IMG/VR virus record: IMGVR_UViG_3300025872_000096
Span: 1 to 45,017 of that record
DNA: 45,017 nucleotides
Origin: a virus
Direction: 5' to 3' (one strand)
Shown: positions 3,995-35,349 of the stretch, piece by piece
Layout of the letters: each line of letters opens with the position of its first letter
Numbering within the stretch: the first letter of the stretch is position 1
Notes under the pieces: generated by a model
Database searches by the model: none
What the model was told of the DNA's origin: nothing
What the model saw: the letters and a program-made list of their open reading frames with translations, nothing else
Made by a program: the position numbers and the translations under genes

Positions 3995-4068
3995 GCAACA
4001 GTAGCCAAGTTGGTTAAGGCCCCGAACTCATAATTCGGTTATCGTCAGTTCAAGTCTGACCTGTTGCA
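3995..4068 (+). tRNA. tRNA-Met(CAT) or tRNA-Ile2
   Basis: Full cloverleaf: acceptor GCAACAG pairs with CTGTTGC; anticodon stem CCGAA/TTCGG holds loop CTCATAA with anticodon CAT; T stem GTCAG/CTGAC. Discriminator A at 4068; a complete CCA is not encoded. CAT could be elongator Met or, if lysidine-modified, Ile for ATA codons, which are common in this AT-rich DNA. Confidence 0.93.
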
Positions 4069-22063: not shown

Positions 22064-22292
22064 TTTCATCCCATTCTAAGTAATATTGGTCTTCAGGGTT
22101 CAAATCATAAAATAGATTAAACCTACCTTTGATATAGTTATCATTGGACATTTCTGCAAATCTATAATCTGCATACATCTGCCCTTCATCTAAATTAGAT
22201 TGAACCCAATCTTCGACAAGTTGTTCACCTATCTCATGATAGATTGCGTCTATAACCATTTGGTTCTCATTTTCTAGAAATGATTCAGCCAT
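22056..22292 (-). CDS. Hypothetical protein
   Basis: 78 residues, acidic and aromatic (EGQMYADYRFAEMSNDNYIK). Overlaps both neighbours by 8 nt. Not recognised. Confidence 0.65.
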   Translation of the reverse strand: MAESFLENENQMVIDAIYHEIGEQLVEDWVQSNLDEGQMYADYRFAEMSNDNYIKGRFNLFYDLNPEDQYYLEWDENV

Positions 22293-23064
22293 TGATTTGC
22301 TCCATTCTATAATCAGGGACGTGCTCGGAATCCAAGTATATCTTATGGGTCTGACATTCTGCTACACATTCTAGGTCTGCCTCACCCATATAATTACAAG
22401 ATGAACATATCTCTCCACATTCATTCTCGCAATAATCCATTGTGTTTATTTCATCACAATCTCTGCAACGATTCTCATAATCTAATAGTTCTGTTACATT
22501 GCCACGAAGAATTTCATATTCCCCACCCCAACCTGTTTCTTCCTCAAATGATAAAGTAAGTAAAGAATTAGGAACAAGATTAGATAGTTTAGTTAGAACT
22601 GTTACAGCAGGAGACCAAGCAGTATTATATTTATATACAAGCCAGTTATCCTCACCCTCTGATTTATATTCAAGTAATTCTGTTTCAGGCCATTCGTCAC
22701 CGTCACGAACAGCAACATCCCATTTGGTTCCCCAATTAGATGTATTCCAGTTATACCAATCCTTTTGAGTTTTGGCATGTGCAATTTCTTTAGCAAACCA
22801 TTCAGGGTCTTGTGGGTCAATTCCTAGACGACTAGGTTGCTGAACATATTCTTCCATGGTAATACCCTCTTCAAGTGGAGAGTGGATATTCCAGAATGCA
22901 AAGACAGGGGCGGAATAATGAGTTTCAGATACTTCCATCTCCATAGTCTTAGGATTCCAACTATCATGTAATACATCAAATGGACGATTCAATCTATCTT
23001 TGATATAATCAATTTCTGACTTTGGACCTTGTATGGTCAAAGTGTTATATACCCAATTTGGCAT
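22285..23064 (-). CDS. YubB/DUF1281-like protein
   Basis: 259 residues. Begins MPNWVYNTLTIQGP, and later NWNTSNWGTKWDV, both typical of the ferredoxin-like YubB/DUF1281 domain found in plasmids and phages. The C-terminal part (about 195-240) has about nine Cys (CRDCDEI, CENECGEICSSC), a possible zinc domain. Served by a TGTCRG promoter and a CCTTTCGTT (minus AACGAAAGG) leader. Function unknown. Confidence 0.75.
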   Translation of the reverse strand: MPNWVYNTLTIQGPKSEIDYIKDRLNRPFDVLHDSWNPKTMEMEVSETHYSAPVFAFWNIHSPLEEGITMEEYVQQPSRLGIDPQDPEWFAKEIAHAKTQKDWYNWNTSNWGTKWDVAVRDGDEWPETELLEYKSEGEDNWLVYKYNTAWSPAVTVLTKLSNLVPNSLLTLSFEEETGWGGEYEILRGNVTELLDYENRCRDCDEINTMDYCENECGEICSSCNYMGEADLECVAECQTHKIYLDSEHVPDYRMEQING

Positions 23065-23091
23065 TTTATATCCTTTCGTTGATATGACCTA

Positions 23092-23113
23092 ATTATATAT
23101 CCCACCACTGACA
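23092..23113 (-). promoter_or_regulatory. TGTCRG-type promoter (site 3)
   Basis: TGTCAGTGG, 10 nt from TGTCAG to TATAAT, for the YubB-like gene. Confidence 0.75.
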
Positions 23114-23222
23114 TTTGTCTATATGGCATGGATCACATGCCAAAGCTGACCATATTGTGAGAATTTCAGGAAATATACTTGACATCCGTAAAACAGATAT
23201 GCTACCCTCACCATCTGCGGGC
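23114..23222. other. Gene-free stretch with decayed regulatory module
   Basis: Between the YubB-like gene's promoter and the candidate small RNA. Contains a half-kept palindrome (TGTGA at 23156-23160) and an ACTTGAC...GTAAAAC pair shared with the 28.6-kb module. No coding signal. Confidence 0.45.
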
Positions 23223-23266
23223 AAAAAAGGAGATCCCCGCTTTTACCGTAGTAATTGCGGGGACCT
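23223..23266 (-). terminator. Rho-independent terminator, minus strand
   Basis: Stem AGGTCCCCGC/GCGGGGATCT on the minus strand, with an inner TTAC/GTAA, then CTCC and TTTTTT. Ends the transcript coming from 23395-25019 or the candidate small RNA. Confidence 0.85.
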
Positions 23267-23377
23267 GACAAATAGGGCTGCTAGTCAAACGAAAGGAATT
23301 AAGTAAACCTGCTTTACTTAGCGACTTGGTAAGGACCTAATTAGCCGCACCCTATAAATGAATAGACCGTTTGGCCT
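23223..23377 (-). ncRNA. Candidate small RNA complementary to start-associated sequences
   Basis: On the minus strand, after TATAAT (plus 23384-23389), the sequence has a perfect 8-bp hairpin (plus TAAGTAAA 23300-23307 with TTTACTTA 23313-23320), then a free CCTTTCGTTTGACTAG (plus 23282-23297), then a 10-bp terminator stem (23231-23240 with 23257-23266) and six T. CCTTTCGTTT is the exact complement of the AAACGAAAGG before many minus-strand start codons. It could be a separate RNA or a processed 3' UTR of the gene at 23395. Not proven to be transcribed. Confidence 0.5.
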
Positions 23378-23383
23378 ATTCAT
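23358..23383 (-). other. Hairpin after the 23395 gene
   Basis: ATGAATAG pairs with CTATTCAT (23376-23383). It lies just past the stop of the 23395 gene with a TATAAT at its edge; could be a processing stem or part of the small RNA's 5' end. Confidence 0.45.
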
Positions 23384-23394
23384 ATTATATCATA

Positions 23395-23802
23395 CTAGTT
23401 GACTAGTATTCCTTCCAAGGCGTACTTCTCACAGAATGTCGAAAGGTCCATTGTGAATAGTGCCTCGTTCTTCATACCACGTACCTTGTTTGAGGTATTG
23501 CTAAAACTATCCTCTTCATGAAGACTAAACGTTTGCTGATTGAAATCAACGATAGCAATCTTGTGCTCGTTGTCTGCAATCTCATTTACGTGTAGACCCC
23601 ACCCAGTCTCTGAGTTCCAGTCGTCCTTGATTAGTTGGCTGATAGCAATGCGTGTAGCATATGCTGTGTCATTCCAACGTGGACGTGCTGCGATTACAGC
23701 ATCCGCCAAACGGCCCAACATTTGATGTCCAGCCCAGTGTCCATACAGTACAATTGTGTTTCCATTCGGCTGTACAAATCCGAAGTTTGCTCTGTCACCC
23801 AT
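23395..23802 (-). CDS. Conserved actinophage hypothetical protein
   Basis: 135 residues. GDRANFGFVQPNGNTIVLYG and HWAGHQMLGRLADAV are features I associate with a protein found in many actinophages. GGAAG before the ATG. Function unknown. Confidence 0.7.
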   Translation of the reverse strand: MGDRANFGFVQPNGNTIVLYGHWAGHQMLGRLADAVIAARPRWNDTAYATRIAISQLIKDDWNSETGWGLHVNEIADNEHKIAIVDFNQQTFSLHEEDSFSNTSNKVRGMKNEALFTMDLSTFCEKYALEGILVN

Positions 23803-24153: not shown

Positions 24154-24366
24154 TTATCTCCTTATATATCCCGTCGGTTGTGCATCCGCCGTATAAGATT
24201 CAACTAAGTTAAACTTATCTCTAATCCGACTTACTTTCTCAATGCTACCAGTTCCAACATTGAATGTCAATGGTGGCATGAATTCGGGGTCTAGTCCAGA
24301 AATTTGTGCTTCCCAATAGGCCATCTCAAGAGACAGCCTATCGGGAGCGGTAAGTTCAAAATACAT
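24154..24366 (-). CDS. Hypothetical protein
   Basis: 70 residues. YFELTAPDRLSLEMAYWEAQ then ESYTADAQPTGYIRR. The 3' end meets the next gene directly and the 5' end overlaps the gene before by 1 nt. Not recognised. Confidence 0.65.
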   Translation of the reverse strand: MYFELTAPDRLSLEMAYWEAQISGLDPEFMPPLTFNVGTGSIEKVSRIRDKFNLVESYTADAQPTGYIRR

Positions 24367-25019
24367 TAGAACTCAATATCTGCATCTTCAACATCAAATG
24401 ATTCAACGATTACATCTCCGTTGTATGCATCTAAAGTTAGAGTGTCTTGTGCAAAGTAGCGAGCATCGAAATCTTCGACCTCGTCGAGTGGACAGTCATA
24501 GCGTAACTCGAATGTCATAGTTCCTGTGATTCGAATTTCCTGCTTTGGCTCGTGGTCCAGAATTTCACAGAGTTCACGAAGAACTTCGTCCTTATCTGTG
24601 TTTGGGTTGTACCACTCTTGAACAGTTAGTTTATCAATAATCTGTCGAATTGTTCCCTGTGAACGGGACAAAAAGTCTTCTAGATTCTTGATGCGTTCTA
24701 ACTTATACTCAAGGTCATTCACCTTGATGATTGGAAATGTAACTTCACCGTTAGTGATATCCTTGTATTGCACAAGGAGATTAGCATTATAGGTCGTTGG
24801 GACCTCTGTAGTTGTTTCCATGGTATTCCTTTCGTTTATTGGTTGAATTGTAGCATGTTGCACTGACAATAGGTTTGGTTTACGGCCACACGGACATGTG
24901 ATTTCAACCACACCTGAAGGAAATCCAAATCCATCAGATGATGTTACTTCAATCAAGCAATCACATTCGTCTGGGTCGCAGGCAAATGTATATTTAGATG
25001 AAACCAGTTCGTTTGACAT
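24366..25019 (-). CDS. Two-part protein: zinc module plus beta protein, two possible starts
   Basis: 217 residues from leaderless ATG 25019 (7 nt after TATAAT). The first about 57 residues form a small zinc-like unit (ACDPDECDCLIEVTSSDG, then TCPCGRKPN). In the same frame at 24821 lies a second ATG with its own TGTCRG promoter and AACGAAAGG leader, giving a 151-residue protein (METTTEVPTTYNANLLVQYK) that looks complete. So the locus may make a long and a short protein, or be a recent in-frame join of two genes. Function unknown. Confidence 0.65.
   Translation of the reverse strand: MSNELVSSKYTFACDPDECDCLIEVTSSDGFGFPSGVVEITCPCGRKPNLLSVQHATIQPINERNTMETTTEVPTTYNANLLVQYKDITNGEVTFPIIKVNDLEYKLERIKNLEDFLSRSQGTIRQIIDKLTVQEWYNPNTDKDEVLRELCEILDHEPKQEIRITGTMTFELRYDCPLDEVEDFDARYFAQDTLTLDAYNGDVIVESFDVEDADIEF
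24847..24868 (-). promoter_or_regulatory. TGTCRG-type promoter (site 4), inside a gene
   Basis: TGTCAG, 10 nt, TACAAT; for the internal start 24821. Confidence 0.65.
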
Positions 25020-25136: not shown

Positions 25137-25150
25137 TATTTCTCAAATAG

Positions 25151-27010: not shown

Positions 27011-27433
27011 TTACAAGTATCTTGCGATAGCGTTGTAAGTAGAAGTGCTTACGACTTCCTCATCGGTCATCTTGAGAATACGGATAGCGTTCTCAATTTC
27101 ATCTACCATTTCCTTGTATTGCCAATCGTGAAAAGTCTCAAAATCCTTTTCAGGTTCAGCAGGTAGGTCTAGGCTACCTTTTGGAATAGAGAAAGATACA
27201 TTTAGTTCGCCATTGTATCTTGTGTGAGCAGATAAGTCATTTGCTTTGGTAATGTTAGCAAGGGCAATCTTAGCGATTTCCTTGTTATACTTTTCCATAG
27301 CCTTTGAGTATTTCTCCTCGTTGATTTTTTGGTTAGCCTTGTCTTTCTTGACTTGTGCTAACTTGTTTTCCAAAGCCTTGATAACTTTGGTTGTAGCGAT
27401 TTTCACGCTAATAGATTTTCCGTTTCTAGCCAT
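27011..27433 (-). CDS. Conserved phage hypothetical protein
   Basis: 140 residues. A Lys-rich helical N-terminal half (ALENKLAQVKKDKANQKINE) and a C-terminal end (NAIRILKMTDEEVVSTSTYN). TGTCRG promoter and AAACGAAAGGAAATC leader. Function unknown. Confidence 0.7.
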   Translation of the reverse strand: MARNGKSISVKIATTKVIKALENKLAQVKKDKANQKINEEKYSKAMEKYNKEIAKIALANITKANDLSAHTRYNGELNVSFSIPKGSLDLPAEPEKDFETFHDWQYKEMVDEIENAIRILKMTDEEVVSTSTYNAIARYL

Positions 27434-27463
27434 TTGATTTCCTTTCGTTTAGGTTAGAGAGAG

Positions 27464-27734: not shown

Positions 27735-28010
27735 TTAGTCATACTGCGGAAGCCAAGCGTCTAGGTGGTGAGCCTCTACGATAGCGGAAGCAGGTGCTTG
27801 ATTTTGATCCCGCCAAGTAATAGGTGCGGGTAGGTCAATAAGGCGTTGGTAATCCTCATCGTGATAAGCATCTATGGCGGCAATACAAGGTTCTACCATA
27901 GAGCGGGGAACGGGTGGATAATGATTAGCTGATAAGTGGATAGCAATACTATCCTCTAAAGATAAACCTAAATCTAGTTCAGCTAAATCGGTTGCGAAAT
28001 TACTCCCCAT
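27735..28010 (-). CDS. Hypothetical acidic protein
   Basis: 91 residues, acidic. LGLSLEDSIAIHLSANHYPP then LPAPITWRDQNQAPASAIVE. Overlaps the gene before by 11 nt. Not recognised. Confidence 0.65.
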   Translation of the reverse strand: MGSNFATDLAELDLGLSLEDSIAIHLSANHYPPVPRSMVEPCIAAIDAYHDEDYQRLIDLPAPITWRDQNQAPASAIVEAHHLDAWLPQYD

Positions 28011-28275
28011 TGTTCATTACCTCATCTCTCATTGTTTCCAATTCGTCAATAGCGTTCATTAGGTCTATGATTTCATCTTCGCTTAGTAAAACTTTCATAG
28101 CCTTATCTACTGCGAGAGAAGCAAGCATACAAGAATAAACATAAATAGACTTAGCGAATTGTTCAGTATCCAAGTCTTTAGCATTGTGGCAGAAAGCCTG
28201 AGCAAAGCCCATTACTTCCTCATCAAAAATACTCTGTTCGGTTGCTTCGATAAGGGCGGTTGCGGTTGATAACAT
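28000..28275 (-). CDS. Hypothetical helical protein
   Basis: 91 residues. Start 28275 is chosen because AACGAAAGGAAAC precedes it and the longer frame runs into the promoter. All-helical (ALIEATEQSIFDEEVMGFAQ). Not recognised. Confidence 0.65.
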   Translation of the reverse strand: MLSTATALIEATEQSIFDEEVMGFAQAFCHNAKDLDTEQFAKSIYVYSCMLASLAVDKAMKVLLSEDEIIDLMNAIDELETMRDEVMNNGE

Positions 28276-28305
28276 TTGTTTCCTTTCGTTGTTGTGGTGG
28301 GCTAG

Positions 28306-28330: not shown

Positions 28331-28582
28331 TTAGGCTAAGGCTACGAGAGCCTGCGAAGCGCCAGCATTTATGCGGTCTAACTCATCTTGCAATTCTTGA
28401 CGAGTAAAGAGAGCAGGATTACCGATTAGTTCAGTTACCATACGAGTATTTTCAGCAGTAAATACTCCAGCAGGCAGGCGTTCTACTTGTGGATAGAAAG
28501 AGCCTTGTGGGTCTAGTTTAGATACAAAATCTACACCCTCGACGGAAAACGGGTAAGAAGCCCAGTTATCTGTGTTTAGCAT
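28331..28582 (-). CDS. Hypothetical protein
   Basis: 83 residues. Start 28582 follows AAACGAAAGGAAAC. WASYPFSVEGVDFVSKLDPQ then LFTRQELQDELDRINAGASQ. Not recognised. Confidence 0.65.
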   Translation of the reverse strand: MLNTDNWASYPFSVEGVDFVSKLDPQGSFYPQVERLPAGVFTAENTRMVTELIGNPALFTRQELQDELDRINAGASQALVALA

Positions 28583-28610
28583 TTGTTTCCTTTCGTTTGT
28601 TGATAGCGCA

Positions 28611-28746: not shown

Positions 28747-28926
28747 CTACAGCTCGTTTTTATAAAATTGATATGCAGCTAAGAACGTTGCATGCATTTC
28801 AAATTTATCACATTCGCTCCAGTCTAAATAAAAATAAGTATCGATAACATTTTGAATTGATTCTGCAACATTTAAAGGGACCTCCAAATATTCTGCGATC
28901 TGATTAGTAAAAATATTAGCAGGCAT
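28747..28926 (-). CDS. Small helical protein
   Basis: 59 residues, TAATG overlap with the GP88-like gene. ANIFTNQIAEYLEVPLNVAE; aromatic and acidic. Not recognised. Confidence 0.65.
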   Translation of the reverse strand: MPANIFTNQIAEYLEVPLNVAESIQNVIDTYFYLDWSECDKFEMHATFLAAYQFYKNEL

Positions 28927-29645
28927 TATTTTTTACTCGCAGAAAATCGAATGTCTGCTTTACCGTACACACATAGGCCACACGATACGCAGGCAGAACC
29001 ATTAGTAGAAATTAGAGGAATTTTCTTAGCATTCTCAGGACATTTAGCGCCAGGCTTGCCAGTCAATTCTTTCATTGTGCTTTCGGTGACAGCAAACGTT
29101 TTGCCTAAGTAAGCAAGGCGGATACCTTGATTTAGTTTTAGGTCATGAGCAATTTCTTTATTTTCATCGTCGGTAGAATAATAAAGAGATAGATTAGGTG
29201 TACCTCTAAGAATAAGCGCTGCAGACTTTACTCGTGTATATACCCAAAATTGAATGTCAGGATGATTAGATATAACAGTCTTCCAGGCATATGCGTAAGT
29301 ATCATTGAAGAAATCGCCATCCCAGTGAATACGGAATAATTTTTTAGCATTGCGCTTTTCACAATCATTGACAAAGTCAACAATCATCTCATCTAGTAAT
29401 AGCAGCATGGCATCCATGTCGGCATTACGTAGGAGCTCCCAATTATGGAGAAGAGTAGCCTTTACTCCCTTGTATACCTTTTCAAGTTTACCAGCGTAGC
29501 AAACACTTTCACAGATAGACGTTGCGCCAGGACATGAATAAGCCTTTCCTGCGGGTAATCCGAAGGTGTTAGCAATTGTTGGGGTTTTACCATTTGGGGA
29601 GACGGCATTAGTTACTTTCCTATCGTTAGAGCGTTTTAGTTTCAT
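28926..29645 (-). CDS. GP88-family protein
   Basis: 239 residues. CPGATSICESVCYAG at 38-52 and CVSCGLCVYG near the end give a set of cysteines that could bind an iron-sulfur cluster or zinc. The pattern SPNGKTPTIANTFGLPAGKA with LFRIHWDGDFFND matches the phage family GP88 (named after a mycobacteriophage gene product). Function unknown; the Cys pattern suggests redox or nucleic-acid work. Served by TGTCRG site 11. Confidence 0.75.
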   Translation of the reverse strand: MKLKRSNDRKVTNAVSPNGKTPTIANTFGLPAGKAYSCPGATSICESVCYAGKLEKVYKGVKATLLHNWELLRNADMDAMLLLLDEMIVDFVNDCEKRNAKKLFRIHWDGDFFNDTYAYAWKTVISNHPDIQFWVYTRVKSAALILRGTPNLSLYYSTDDENKEIAHDLKLNQGIRLAYLGKTFAVTESTMKELTGKPGAKCPENAKKIPLISTNGSACVSCGLCVYGKADIRFSASKK

Positions 29646-29670
29646 TTATAGACCTTTCGTTATGGGCCCT

Positions 29671-29693: not shown

Positions 29694-30188
29694 TTACCAA
29701 GATGAGTTATAGTAGAAGGACAATTGGTCGAAATCGGGCAATTCGAACAAGCGGTCTAGTTTCTTGATAGTACGCTTGATATCTTCCCAATACCATTCAT
29801 CGATATCATATGAGCCAAAGAAGAAGCCAGCCTGCGGCGGCAGCAAACTAGGGTCTTTAGCGAATAAGGCTTGACGGCAAGTCTCTCGCAATTCCTTTAG
29901 TTTATCTTTAGACACATAGTAATTGCCGCAGTCATCATTTCCACCTTGTACATTATCGACAAACCATTTGTGAATTTGATTAGACTTACGCCAATAAGCA
30001 GCAGTTACTTCAACATTTACACCATAGATATCGGTAGCAATATCTTTCATTCCTGCCGTTTCTACAATATCATTCCAGAGTGGCATGATAGCCTCATCGC
30101 TATCCATGTCAAGGTCTAAATCTCTCAATTTATTCCAGTCAATTTTTTCCACATACTTTTTAGCGTGGAGATACATATCTAAACCCAT
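29694..30188 (-). CDS. GLDMYL-type conserved protein
   Basis: 164 residues. The start MGLDMYLHAKKYVEKIDW and the block NQIHKWFVDNVQGGNDDCGN are typical of a widespread phage and bacterial family without known function. Followed by GSYDIDEWYWEDI. A GAAAGGAAAA leader precedes it. Confidence 0.75.
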   Translation of the reverse strand: MGLDMYLHAKKYVEKIDWNKLRDLDLDMDSDEAIMPLWNDIVETAGMKDIATDIYGVNVEVTAAYWRKSNQIHKWFVDNVQGGNDDCGNYYVSKDKLKELRETCRQALFAKDPSLLPPQAGFFFGSYDIDEWYWEDIKRTIKKLDRLFELPDFDQLSFYYNSSW

Positions 30189-30218
30189 TAGTTTTTCCTT
30201 TCGTTGGGATACGCAGCA

Positions 30219-30689: not shown

Positions 30690-30835
30690 TATTCTGATAC
30701 CTCCAAAACATCAAAAGCGTCAAACTTTACTAATTCGCTATCAGGCAAAGTAGAAAGAGATTTATTCAGGGCAAAGATAGCAGACAAATCGCTGTCTGCT
30801 TCTACTACATAACTAATCAAAACATTTTTTTTCAT
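30689..30835 (-). CDS. Small hypothetical protein
   Basis: 48 residues (NVLISYVVEADSDLSAIFAL). Overlaps both neighbours by 1-3 nt. Not recognised. Confidence 0.6.
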   Translation of the reverse strand: MKKNVLISYVVEADSDLSAIFALNKSLSTLPDSELVKFDAFDVLEVSE

Positions 30836-31044
30836 TAGATAGCCTCCCCTGTTGCGAATAGTTGATTTTCTGAAAGTATGCCATTATCAAAAATGACATC
30901 TTTCCCGTCAAGAATAATCCCATAAGGATTACAAATACAGTCCTCGAAATCGTAGTCCTCTCCATTAGAGAAATACTGAGCACCGACACCATTACACAAA
31001 TCGCAGTCTAGGATTTGATTTACAATGTATTCTAGTTTTTCCAT
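30835..31044 (-). CDS. Small Cys-containing protein
   Basis: 69 residues. CDLCNGVG and CICNPYG form a possible zinc site resembling half a DnaJ-type knuckle. TGTCRG site 13 and AACGAAAGGAAAAC leader precede it, inside the gene upstream. Confidence 0.65.
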   Translation of the reverse strand: MEKLEYIVNQILDCDLCNGVGAQYFSNGEDYDFEDCICNPYGIILDGKDVIFDNGILSENQLFATGEAI

Positions 31045-31046
31045 TT

Positions 31047-31175
31047 TTAGTTTTCCTTTCGTTCTGTTGTTGCTGGAATTGTAGCAGAAGCGACTGACAA
31101 AATCGCCTGTAAGTTTTGCGCCTGTTGCGCCTTGCGTTGCTCTATAACAAGAGCCTTGAATTCATCTAGTTTCAT
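31047..31175 (-). CDS. Small protein with embedded downstream promoter
   Basis: 42 residues. Its last 18 codons (ILSVASATIPATTERKEN) also contain the TGTCAG box, TACAAT and the AACGAAAGG ribosome site of the next gene. Helical, Gln-rich N-terminal part. Confidence 0.55.
   Translation of the reverse strand: MKLDEFKALVIEQRKAQQAQNLQAILSVASATIPATTERKEN
31078..31099 (-). promoter_or_regulatory. TGTCRG-type promoter (site 13), inside a gene
   Basis: TGTCAG, 10 nt, TACAAT, for the 30835 gene. Confidence 0.7.
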
Positions 31176-31203
31176 TTAGTTTCCCTTTCGTTTAGTTGAT
31201 TAG

Positions 31204-33067: not shown

Positions 33068-33083
33068 TGTGATACTAATCACA
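33068..33083. promoter_or_regulatory. CRP/GlxR-type palindrome F
   Basis: TGTGA-TACTAA-TCACA, perfect arms; centre 57.5 bp upstream of the site 17 -10 end. Overlaps the end of the 33075 gene. Confidence 0.65.
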
Positions 33084-33269
33084 CGCTACGGCTACGATAC
33101 GATACTTATCGCTAAGCCCATGAGTAGGGCGGATACGGACAAGGTACGCATTAGCGTTATCATAGAAGACATCAGACGGCTCAGCGTCTTGGATTATACC
33201 CTCTAGGGTACGGCTACGATAAGCCTTGCCTACTAGTAGGGATTGGACATTGTATAGATTAGCACTCAT
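33075..33269 (-). CDS. Small protein, paralog of the 31228 gene
   Basis: 64 residues. LVRIRPTHGLSDKYRIVAVA matches the end of the 31228 product. AACGAAAGGTAGG leader. Its CDS end overlaps palindrome F. Confidence 0.65.
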   Translation of the reverse strand: MSANLYNVQSLLVGKAYRSRTLEGIIQDAEPSDVFYDNANAYLVRIRPTHGLSDKYRIVAVACD

Positions 33270-33310
33270 TTGGCTACCTACCTTTCGTTAGTTAATTTTG
33301 TTGGGAGCGA

Positions 33311-33427: not shown

Positions 33428-33526
33428 CTAATCGGTGTGATTATGAACACACTGAGATTCTATCTCGTGTCCAAACTCCTCTACTAATTCCTCGTAGATT
33501 TCGTCCATATAGTCTAGATAATCCAT
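33428..33526 (-). CDS. Acidic micropeptide
   Basis: 32 residues (MDYLDYMDEIYEELVEEFGH) with an ideal AACGAAAGGAG leader and its own promoter (site 19). The 3' end carries palindrome G. First gene of the minus block. Confidence 0.6.
   Translation of the reverse strand: MDYLDYMDEIYEELVEEFGHEIESQCVHNHTD
33436..33451. promoter_or_regulatory. CRP/GlxR-type palindrome G
   Basis: TGTGA-TTATGA-ACACA, 9 of 10; centre 57.5 bp upstream of the site 18 -10 end. Confidence 0.55.
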
Positions 33527-33555
33527 TGTGGTTATCTCCTTTCGTTATATATATA

Positions 33556-35030: not shown

Positions 35031-35033
35031 ATT

Positions 35034-35109
35034 GGACCATAGCTCAGTCGGCAGAGCGGGAAGCTGTTAACTTCTAGGTCCCAGGTTCGAGCCCTGGTGG
35101 TCCAGCCAT
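35034..35109 (+). tRNA. tRNA-Asn(GTT)
   Basis: Acceptor TGGACCA/TGGTCCA, anticodon stem GGAAG/CTTCT, loop CTGTTAA, T stem CCAGG/CCTGG. Discriminator G, CCA encoded. Confidence 0.93.
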
Positions 35110-35110
35110 G

Positions 35111-35183
35111 CGGATGTTGCATATTGGTAGTGCCTCTGCCTTCCAAGCAGAAGGGGTGAGTTCGATTCTCATCATCCGCTCCA
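35111..35183 (+). tRNA. tRNA-Gly(TCC)
   Basis: Acceptor GCGGATG/CATCCGC, anticodon stem TCTGC/GCAGA, loop CTTCCAA. CCA encoded after discriminator T. Confidence 0.93.
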
Positions 35184-35184
35184 C

Positions 35185-35259
35185 GCCCGATTAGCTCAGT
35201 GGCAGAGCATCCGCCTTGTAAGCGGAGGGTCATCAGTTCAAATCTGATATTGGGCTCCA
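35185..35259 (+). tRNA. tRNA-Thr(TGT)
   Basis: Acceptor GCCCGAT/ATTGGGC, anticodon stem TCCGC/GCGGA, loop CTTGTAA, T stem ATCAG/CTGAT. CCA encoded. Confidence 0.93.
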
Positions 35260-35260
35260 T

Positions 35261-35333
35261 ACCTCTGTAGTTCAGTGGATAGAACAATGGACTTCTAAGC
35301 CATGTGTCGCAAGTTCAATTCTTGCCAGGGGTG
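35261..35333 (+). tRNA. tRNA-Arg(TCT)
   Basis: Acceptor ACCTCTG/CAGGGGT, loop CTTCTAA with anticodon TCT (one mismatch closes the stem), T stem GCAAG/CTTGC. CCA not encoded. TCT reads AGA, common in this AT-rich genome. Confidence 0.9.
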
Positions 35334-35349
35334 CTCTATATAGGACAAA

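Follow-up and report, generated by a model that had tools for sequence, protein, structure and literature searches.

Start-associated sequences (SAS) have been described in the cluster K mycobacteriophages and in Microbacterium cluster EF phages; according to the accessible parts of these reports they occupy the ribosome-binding position of 10–19 phage genes, in one orientation, and contain bases beyond those pairing with 16S rRNA (PMC3203893, PMC7302621). The cluster K SAS, GGGATAGGAGCCC, is given there as a 13-bp sequence at the start of 13–19 genes (PMC3203893). One inverted copy, unlinked to a gene start, was noted in 2011 in the K1 genomes of Anaya, Adephagia, Angelica and CrimD. The available sections of the 2011 paper leave room for an RNA or a protein product, and the role of SAS is still called unknown in the accessible text of papers from 2024–2025. 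No RNA partner of SAS is described in the accessible portions of the open-licence cluster K literature.

Bacterial trans-acting small RNAs with C/U-rich anti-Shine-Dalgarno loops include RsaE/RoxS and the actinobacterial 6C RNA, and pairing over Shine-Dalgarno bases blocks initiation in known cases. Among phage RNAs, c4 of P1 and P7 is a case of antisense pairing that blocks initiation (PMC12197685).

The locus considered here lies in the window, i.e. the whole stretch of 45,017 nt analysed (IMG/VR virus record IMGVR_UViG_3300025872_000096). At a probability of roughly 77%, we read it as encoding an antisense RNA that acts in trans, preventing ribosomes from binding at about 11 tagged early phage genes. 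The computational results establish the gene, its strand, fold and conservation, the set of leaders, and a matched change of loop and leader. The RNA resembles c4 (P1/P7), sar (P22) and OOP (lambda) in being phage-encoded and, putatively, in having phage messages as its pairing partners. Translation initiation is the step at which c4 and sar act, and in c4 the complementary segments are in loops. However, each of these three RNAs is described for one message, whereas the seed in the window matches about 11 leaders. As in RsaE/RoxS and 6C, a pyrimidine seed, in a loop or single-stranded, faces the ribosome-binding sites of many messages; unlike them, the RNA is encoded by a phage and aimed at a repeated tag in the phage's own genes, and it has a covarying scaffold, a pseudoknot-like display of the seed and no Rfam family. 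The tag is likewise conserved, found in one orientation at start codons and extended beyond the 16S pairing, the properties by which SAS are recognised in the accessible part of PMC3203893. However, its sequence (AACGAAAGG, against GGGATAGGAGCCC or GGGAAAGGACCCC for SAS) makes it SAS-like and not the cluster K SAS.

The window contains 12 copies of AACGAAAGG, against 0.27 expected and a maximum of 1 in 100 shuffles. Eleven minus-strand copies each precede an ATG by a few to a dozen nucleotides, and the only inverted copy is inside the RNA, at 23288–23296. Both observations agree with the first-pass annotation, a reading of the letters alone, which had counted at least 11 tagged minus-strand starts and had seen the exact complement of the tag in a candidate small RNA. 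The minus-strand tags are located at 23072–23080 (before ORF 22285–23064), 24828–24836 (ORF 24366–24821, start 24821), 27441–27449 (ORF 27011–27433), 28282–28290 (ORF 28000–28275; earlier misplaced at 28272), 28589–28597 (ORF 28331–28582), 29653–29661 (GP88-family ORF 28926–29645), 30197–30205 (ORF 29694–30188), 31055–31063 (ORF 30835–31044), 31184–31192 (ORF 31047–31175), 33281–33289 (ORF 33075–33269) and 33538–33546 (ORF 33428–33526, 32 aa). Among the tagged genes are one for a GP88-family protein, the 259-aa ORF adjoining the RNA and several short ORFs. TGTCRG is present upstream of 10 of the 11, no such promoter being seen for the tag at 33281.

The early-gene promoters on the minus strand between 20000 and 34000 have the form TGTC[AG]GTGG-N8-TAnAAT. 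They resemble what we take to be the consensus of RecA-NDp/PafBC DNA-damage promoters, TGTCRGTG-N8-TAnnnT. Relatives of the GP88-family protein (28926–29645) occur in 373 phage records, nearly all of Mycobacterium or Streptomyces phages, and together with the promoter type they suggest an actinobacterial host.

The RNA gene occupies 23223–23377 on the minus strand, with a predicted transcript of about 155 nt. This strand folds at −49.4 kcal/mol (z −3.84), and the plus strand has a less distinct fold (z −2.44). Much of what had been noted at first pass was recovered: the minus-strand TATAAT is part of an extended −10 promoter, TGATATAAT (23392–23384), the 10-bp terminator stem with T6 belongs to an intrinsic terminator at 23223–23263, ending at 23223, and the CU-rich unpaired stretch is CCTTTCGTTT at 23296–23287. 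The hairpins seen then are also present, but the true fold is larger. P1 (AUAGGG 23355–23350 with CCCUAU 23277–23272) closes a conserved core (23272–23355). Within it, P2 (GCGGCU 23348–23343 with AGUCGC 23326–23321) carries an apical hairpin, P2b (23337–23328), the two spanning 23321–23348; the P3 hairpin, AAGUAAA/UUUACUU (23301–23319), is restricted to type A relatives; and P4 (23280–23312; GCAG 23312–23309 with CU-A-GC 23284–23280, the A bulged) encloses the seed UUCCUUUCGUUU (23287–23298), which is complementary to the leader tag AAACGAAAGGAA. All of these elements are on the minus strand. P4 is pseudoknot-like with P3 in the window and a plain hairpin in other subtypes. A perfect 8-bp hairpin reported at the 5′ end does exist in the window, but its left arm overlaps the predicted transcription start, so that its inner part alone can be transcribed, and it is variable and missing in several relatives. 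The gene has its own promoter and terminator away from its targets, and a conserved unpaired seed facing the ribosome-binding regions of several messages, as is usual for trans-acting antisense small RNAs.

Searching Rfam with the whole window at gathering thresholds returned only tRNAs, and no family matched 23000–23600 at E up to 5. Four tRNA genes (Asn, Gly, Thr, Arg) are clustered at 35033–35334 on the plus strand, with a further tRNA-Met at 3995 and tRNA-Asp at 25150. The segment GGUGCGGCU had been considered as a look-alike of the 16S rRNA 3′ end; this was dropped, as the segment is P2 and changes with its partner. On the plus strand, just past the RNA terminator, 23179–23209 forms a conserved TTGACA-N18-TACCCT block in which TTACG and GGGT are near-invariant (23 aligned records). 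Judged by its sequence, this could be a sigma-A-like promoter aimed back into the RNA gene, giving an antisense of the RNA.

Homologs of the RNA were found in about 80 virus records. A scan of IMG/VR with a 16-mer from the loop gave 16 true homologs, and three further scans that left the loop free gave more; none of the true homologs listed from these loop-free scans lacked the loop core. With a covariance model built on 30 type A cores, the window scores 96.4 bits and the other subtypes 48–69 bits. All 66 aligned homologs share the loop core CUUUCG(U/A)U unchanged, amid stems that are rewritten. In the 30-row type A alignment the stated structure has 93% of its cells paired, and two-sided changes occur in 55 cells against 15.4 in shuffles. 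The covariation score is 0.259 against 0.107 shuffled for these 30 MAFFT-aligned sequences, a cleaner figure than the 0.380 against 0.124 for 66 sequences, where the alignment was fitted to the model. Sliding the stem partners on the 30-row alignment destroyed the signal, and adding P4, which had been suggested by RNAalifold, kept it.

P1, P2 and P4 covary. P1 shows two-sided changes at 5 of its 7 pairs, P2 includes the pair types GC/CG/AU/UA and GU/UG/CG/AU among the 66 sequences, and the P4 strands are rewritten jointly across subtypes (e.g. GCAGAG/CTCTAGC and GCATCG/CGATAGC). A G.U or U.G pair is found in P2 in 58 of the 66 rows, which identifies the minus strand as the RNA strand because on the opposite strand it would be an A.C mismatch. 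Directly upstream of the RNA, 48 of 50 records have TGnTATAAT, which is not accompanied by the early-gene TGTCRG motif, and a terminator hairpin follows in most relatives (L112 and L117 have no obvious one). This is very likely a real structured-RNA gene family. A BLAST search of the RNA against INPHARED phages gave no match, nor was there one for the MPNW gene, and two GTDB genome matches (L075, L076) were discarded as chance since the rest of the element is absent.

Pairing of the seed with the leaders was evaluated by duplex energies. The window seed reaches a mean of −13.96 kcal/mol against promoter-defined leaders, compared with −5.11 kcal/mol for shuffled seeds (0/500 as low as the real seed) and −10.11 kcal/mol when CCUUUC was kept and its flanks shuffled (1/500 as low). 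In the analysis as a whole a number of hypotheses were considered, and some of the tests had not been planned in advance. Promoter-defined leaders had replaced a set of 52 ‘early’ starts from a crude caller, on which shuffled seeds equalled the count at −10 kcal/mol. Complementarity extended to 12–13 nt had been claimed at first pass for several leaders; the best seed–leader match is 13 nt, at 24828. Part of the complementarity is ordinary Shine-Dalgarno sequence. The actinobacterial anti-Shine-Dalgarno includes CCUUUC and does not pair AAC. Among promoter-defined leaders, 82–88% contain GAAAG, preceded in 63–85% of those by AAC; ribosome pairing does not account for this AAC, which lies beyond the 16S pairing. 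The loops of types A and C pair better with the leaders of their own group than with leaders from the other large groups; for loop B the fit to leaders of groups C and D is slightly better than to those of group B. The cross-type energy comparison (A–D), consistent but small and confounded with ancestry, lends weak support.

From its sequence, the RNA is likely to pair with the leaders. According to the proposed mechanism, its own extended −10 promoter and terminator would yield the transcript of about 155 nt, which would fold into the conserved scaffold (P1, P2/P2b and P4, here with P3) and present the loop UUCCUUUCGUU. This loop would pair with AAACGAAAGGAA, which holds the Shine-Dalgarno bases GAAAGG and immediately precedes the start codon in about 11 minus-strand, presumably early, genes. 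With the pairing in place, all tagged starts would be closed to the 30S ribosome at the same time, and the RNA would thereby limit or end expression of the tagged regulon. Transcription of the RNA, pairing in cells and early-to-late timing are what we infer for this model. The same pairing evidence would also suit an RNA that activates or protects the messages, by stabilising their 5′ ends or delivering them to ribosomes. Its strong extended −10 promoter, lacking TGTCRG, could make it available from the start of infection, and, judging by how conserved the scaffold is, a protein or the ribosome could be its partner. We nevertheless regard activation as unlikely, and repression of the regulon as the more likely outcome, since the pairing covers the Shine-Dalgarno bases themselves, as in the known cases where initiation is blocked. 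Base pairing alone would not require a scaffold as conserved as this one; the RNA therefore likely has a protein partner or a second function.

The co-occurrence of RNA and leaders was examined from both directions. The 49 relatives picked through the RNA each contain exactly one RNA, and 48 of them have AACGAAAG leaders before ATG, with few exceptions on the strand of the RNA. Conversely, 28 of the 49 records picked by promoter and leader alone gave a strong covariance model match (<1e-6), and three more (L264, L266, L268) contain the same RNA, in which the loop sequence has shifted to a different hairpin. In these three, the P2b loop holds UUCCUUUCG and P4, a short hairpin, lacks it; scaffold, promoter, terminator and setting are all kept. 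The first-pass annotation had pointed to relatives that keep the leaders as decisive for its small-RNA interpretation; there, the hairpin RNA and its loop are kept alongside them, and the interpretation is supported. Two leader-bearing records, G051 and G095, have no RNA at the expected place, which both include, and the remaining ones are partly fragments ending before the RNA locus. Since some leader-bearing records have no recognised RNA, the leader may also work without it.

Unrelated hairpins with anti-leader loops were found in other leader-bearing phages. G075, which lacks the main RNA, has two tandem perfect hairpins (L285 13123–13210; z −4.72), each with the loop UAAUUCCUUUC; a U-rich stretch follows the pair. 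In G089 and G072 the loop UAUUCUUGUCCUUUC is presented by a hairpin. Scanning with this loop gave 61 stretches, of which L321, L327, L337, L345, L351 and L355 have hairpin arms of at least 9 bp; all of these except L321 are in records with ACGAAAGG leaders, L351 and G089, the record that first showed the loop, being one and the same contig. In these unrelated-hairpin phages GAAAGGACA leaders go with UUGUCCUUUC loops: among records with a strong hairpin and a TATTCTTGTCCTTTC loop, 24/29 leaders in G099 and 10/15 in G100 are GAAAGGACA, as are 6/12 in G089, and the distinguishing position is C in 4% of type A leaders. Loop and leader therefore differ together between groups. A candidate hairpin in G094 was not counted (z=−0.09). 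The L327, L337 and L355 hairpins are GC-rich, with 13–14 bp and the loop TATTCTTGTCCTTTC, and their records have 15–30 ACGAAAGG leaders, nearly all on one strand.

That the RNA is a broad anti-Shine-Dalgarno decoy against host messages, its match to the phage leaders being mostly a by-product of 16S resemblance, might be proposed from the occurrence of CCUUUC in the actinobacterial anti-Shine-Dalgarno as well. It is hardly probable, given that the seed extends over AAC, which 16S rRNA leaves unpaired, that flank-shuffled seeds keeping CCUUUC fit worse (1/500 as low), and that the GAAAGGACA leaders accompany UUGUCCUUUC loops. Least probable of all is that there is no RNA function and that the locus is the relic of an inverted leader, as the first-pass annotation had allowed, or a binding site at the level of DNA, oppositely oriented: the core does equal the leader sequence read backwards and adjoins the conserved promoter-like block on the plus strand, but this explains neither the RNA-strand-specific covariation with its G.U pairs, nor the conserved promoter and usual terminator, nor the relocated seed in L264, L266 and L268, nor the unrelated scaffolds with an anti-leader loop.

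The antisense reading might be carried to the cultured phages through the inverted SAS. With up to 2 mismatches allowed, Anaya has 16 forward SAS sites; its one inverted copy, near 59870 in the unannotated gap between gp96 and gp97, reads GGCCTCCTATCCC on the gene strand and is part of the loop of a hairpin. Angelica, Peanam and Amelie have this loop too, on stems that differ, several pairs being kept by two-sided changes (read by eye). All four are phages of Mycobacterium smegmatis mc2 155, a laboratory strain. The noncoding gap region, Anaya 59682–60066 (L376 9783–10167), has matches in 177 mycobacteriophage records, 8 of which were examined. A second strong hairpin adjoins the inverted-SAS hairpin in the Anaya gap. 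No good inverted copy was present in the stretch examined of the cluster K phages Ekdilam, Keshu, SirPhilip and LeMond, or at up to 2 mismatches in Pixie 25000–60000. For AnnaSerena, where the prediction was made beforehand, 20000–56707 gave only three weak inverted hits (3 mismatches), all inside annotated genes, and the gaps listed within this range hold no 7-nt inverted SAS match.

The unrelated scaffolds, the joint change of loop and address, and the cluster K SAS with its inverted copy as a cultured case would fit a general strategy of actinobacteriophages, in which an address at the start site tags a gene set and one RNA loop reads the address. We put this forward tentatively, at somewhat less than even odds. 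The phage antisense RNAs that we found described act on single messages; if the present reading is true, one phage RNA controls a whole tagged gene set in a single step. The purpose of SAS, a question open since 2011, becomes directly testable via the inverted copy in a noncoding hairpin loop, and the pairing of seed and address would offer a way into the early regulons of uncultured phages.
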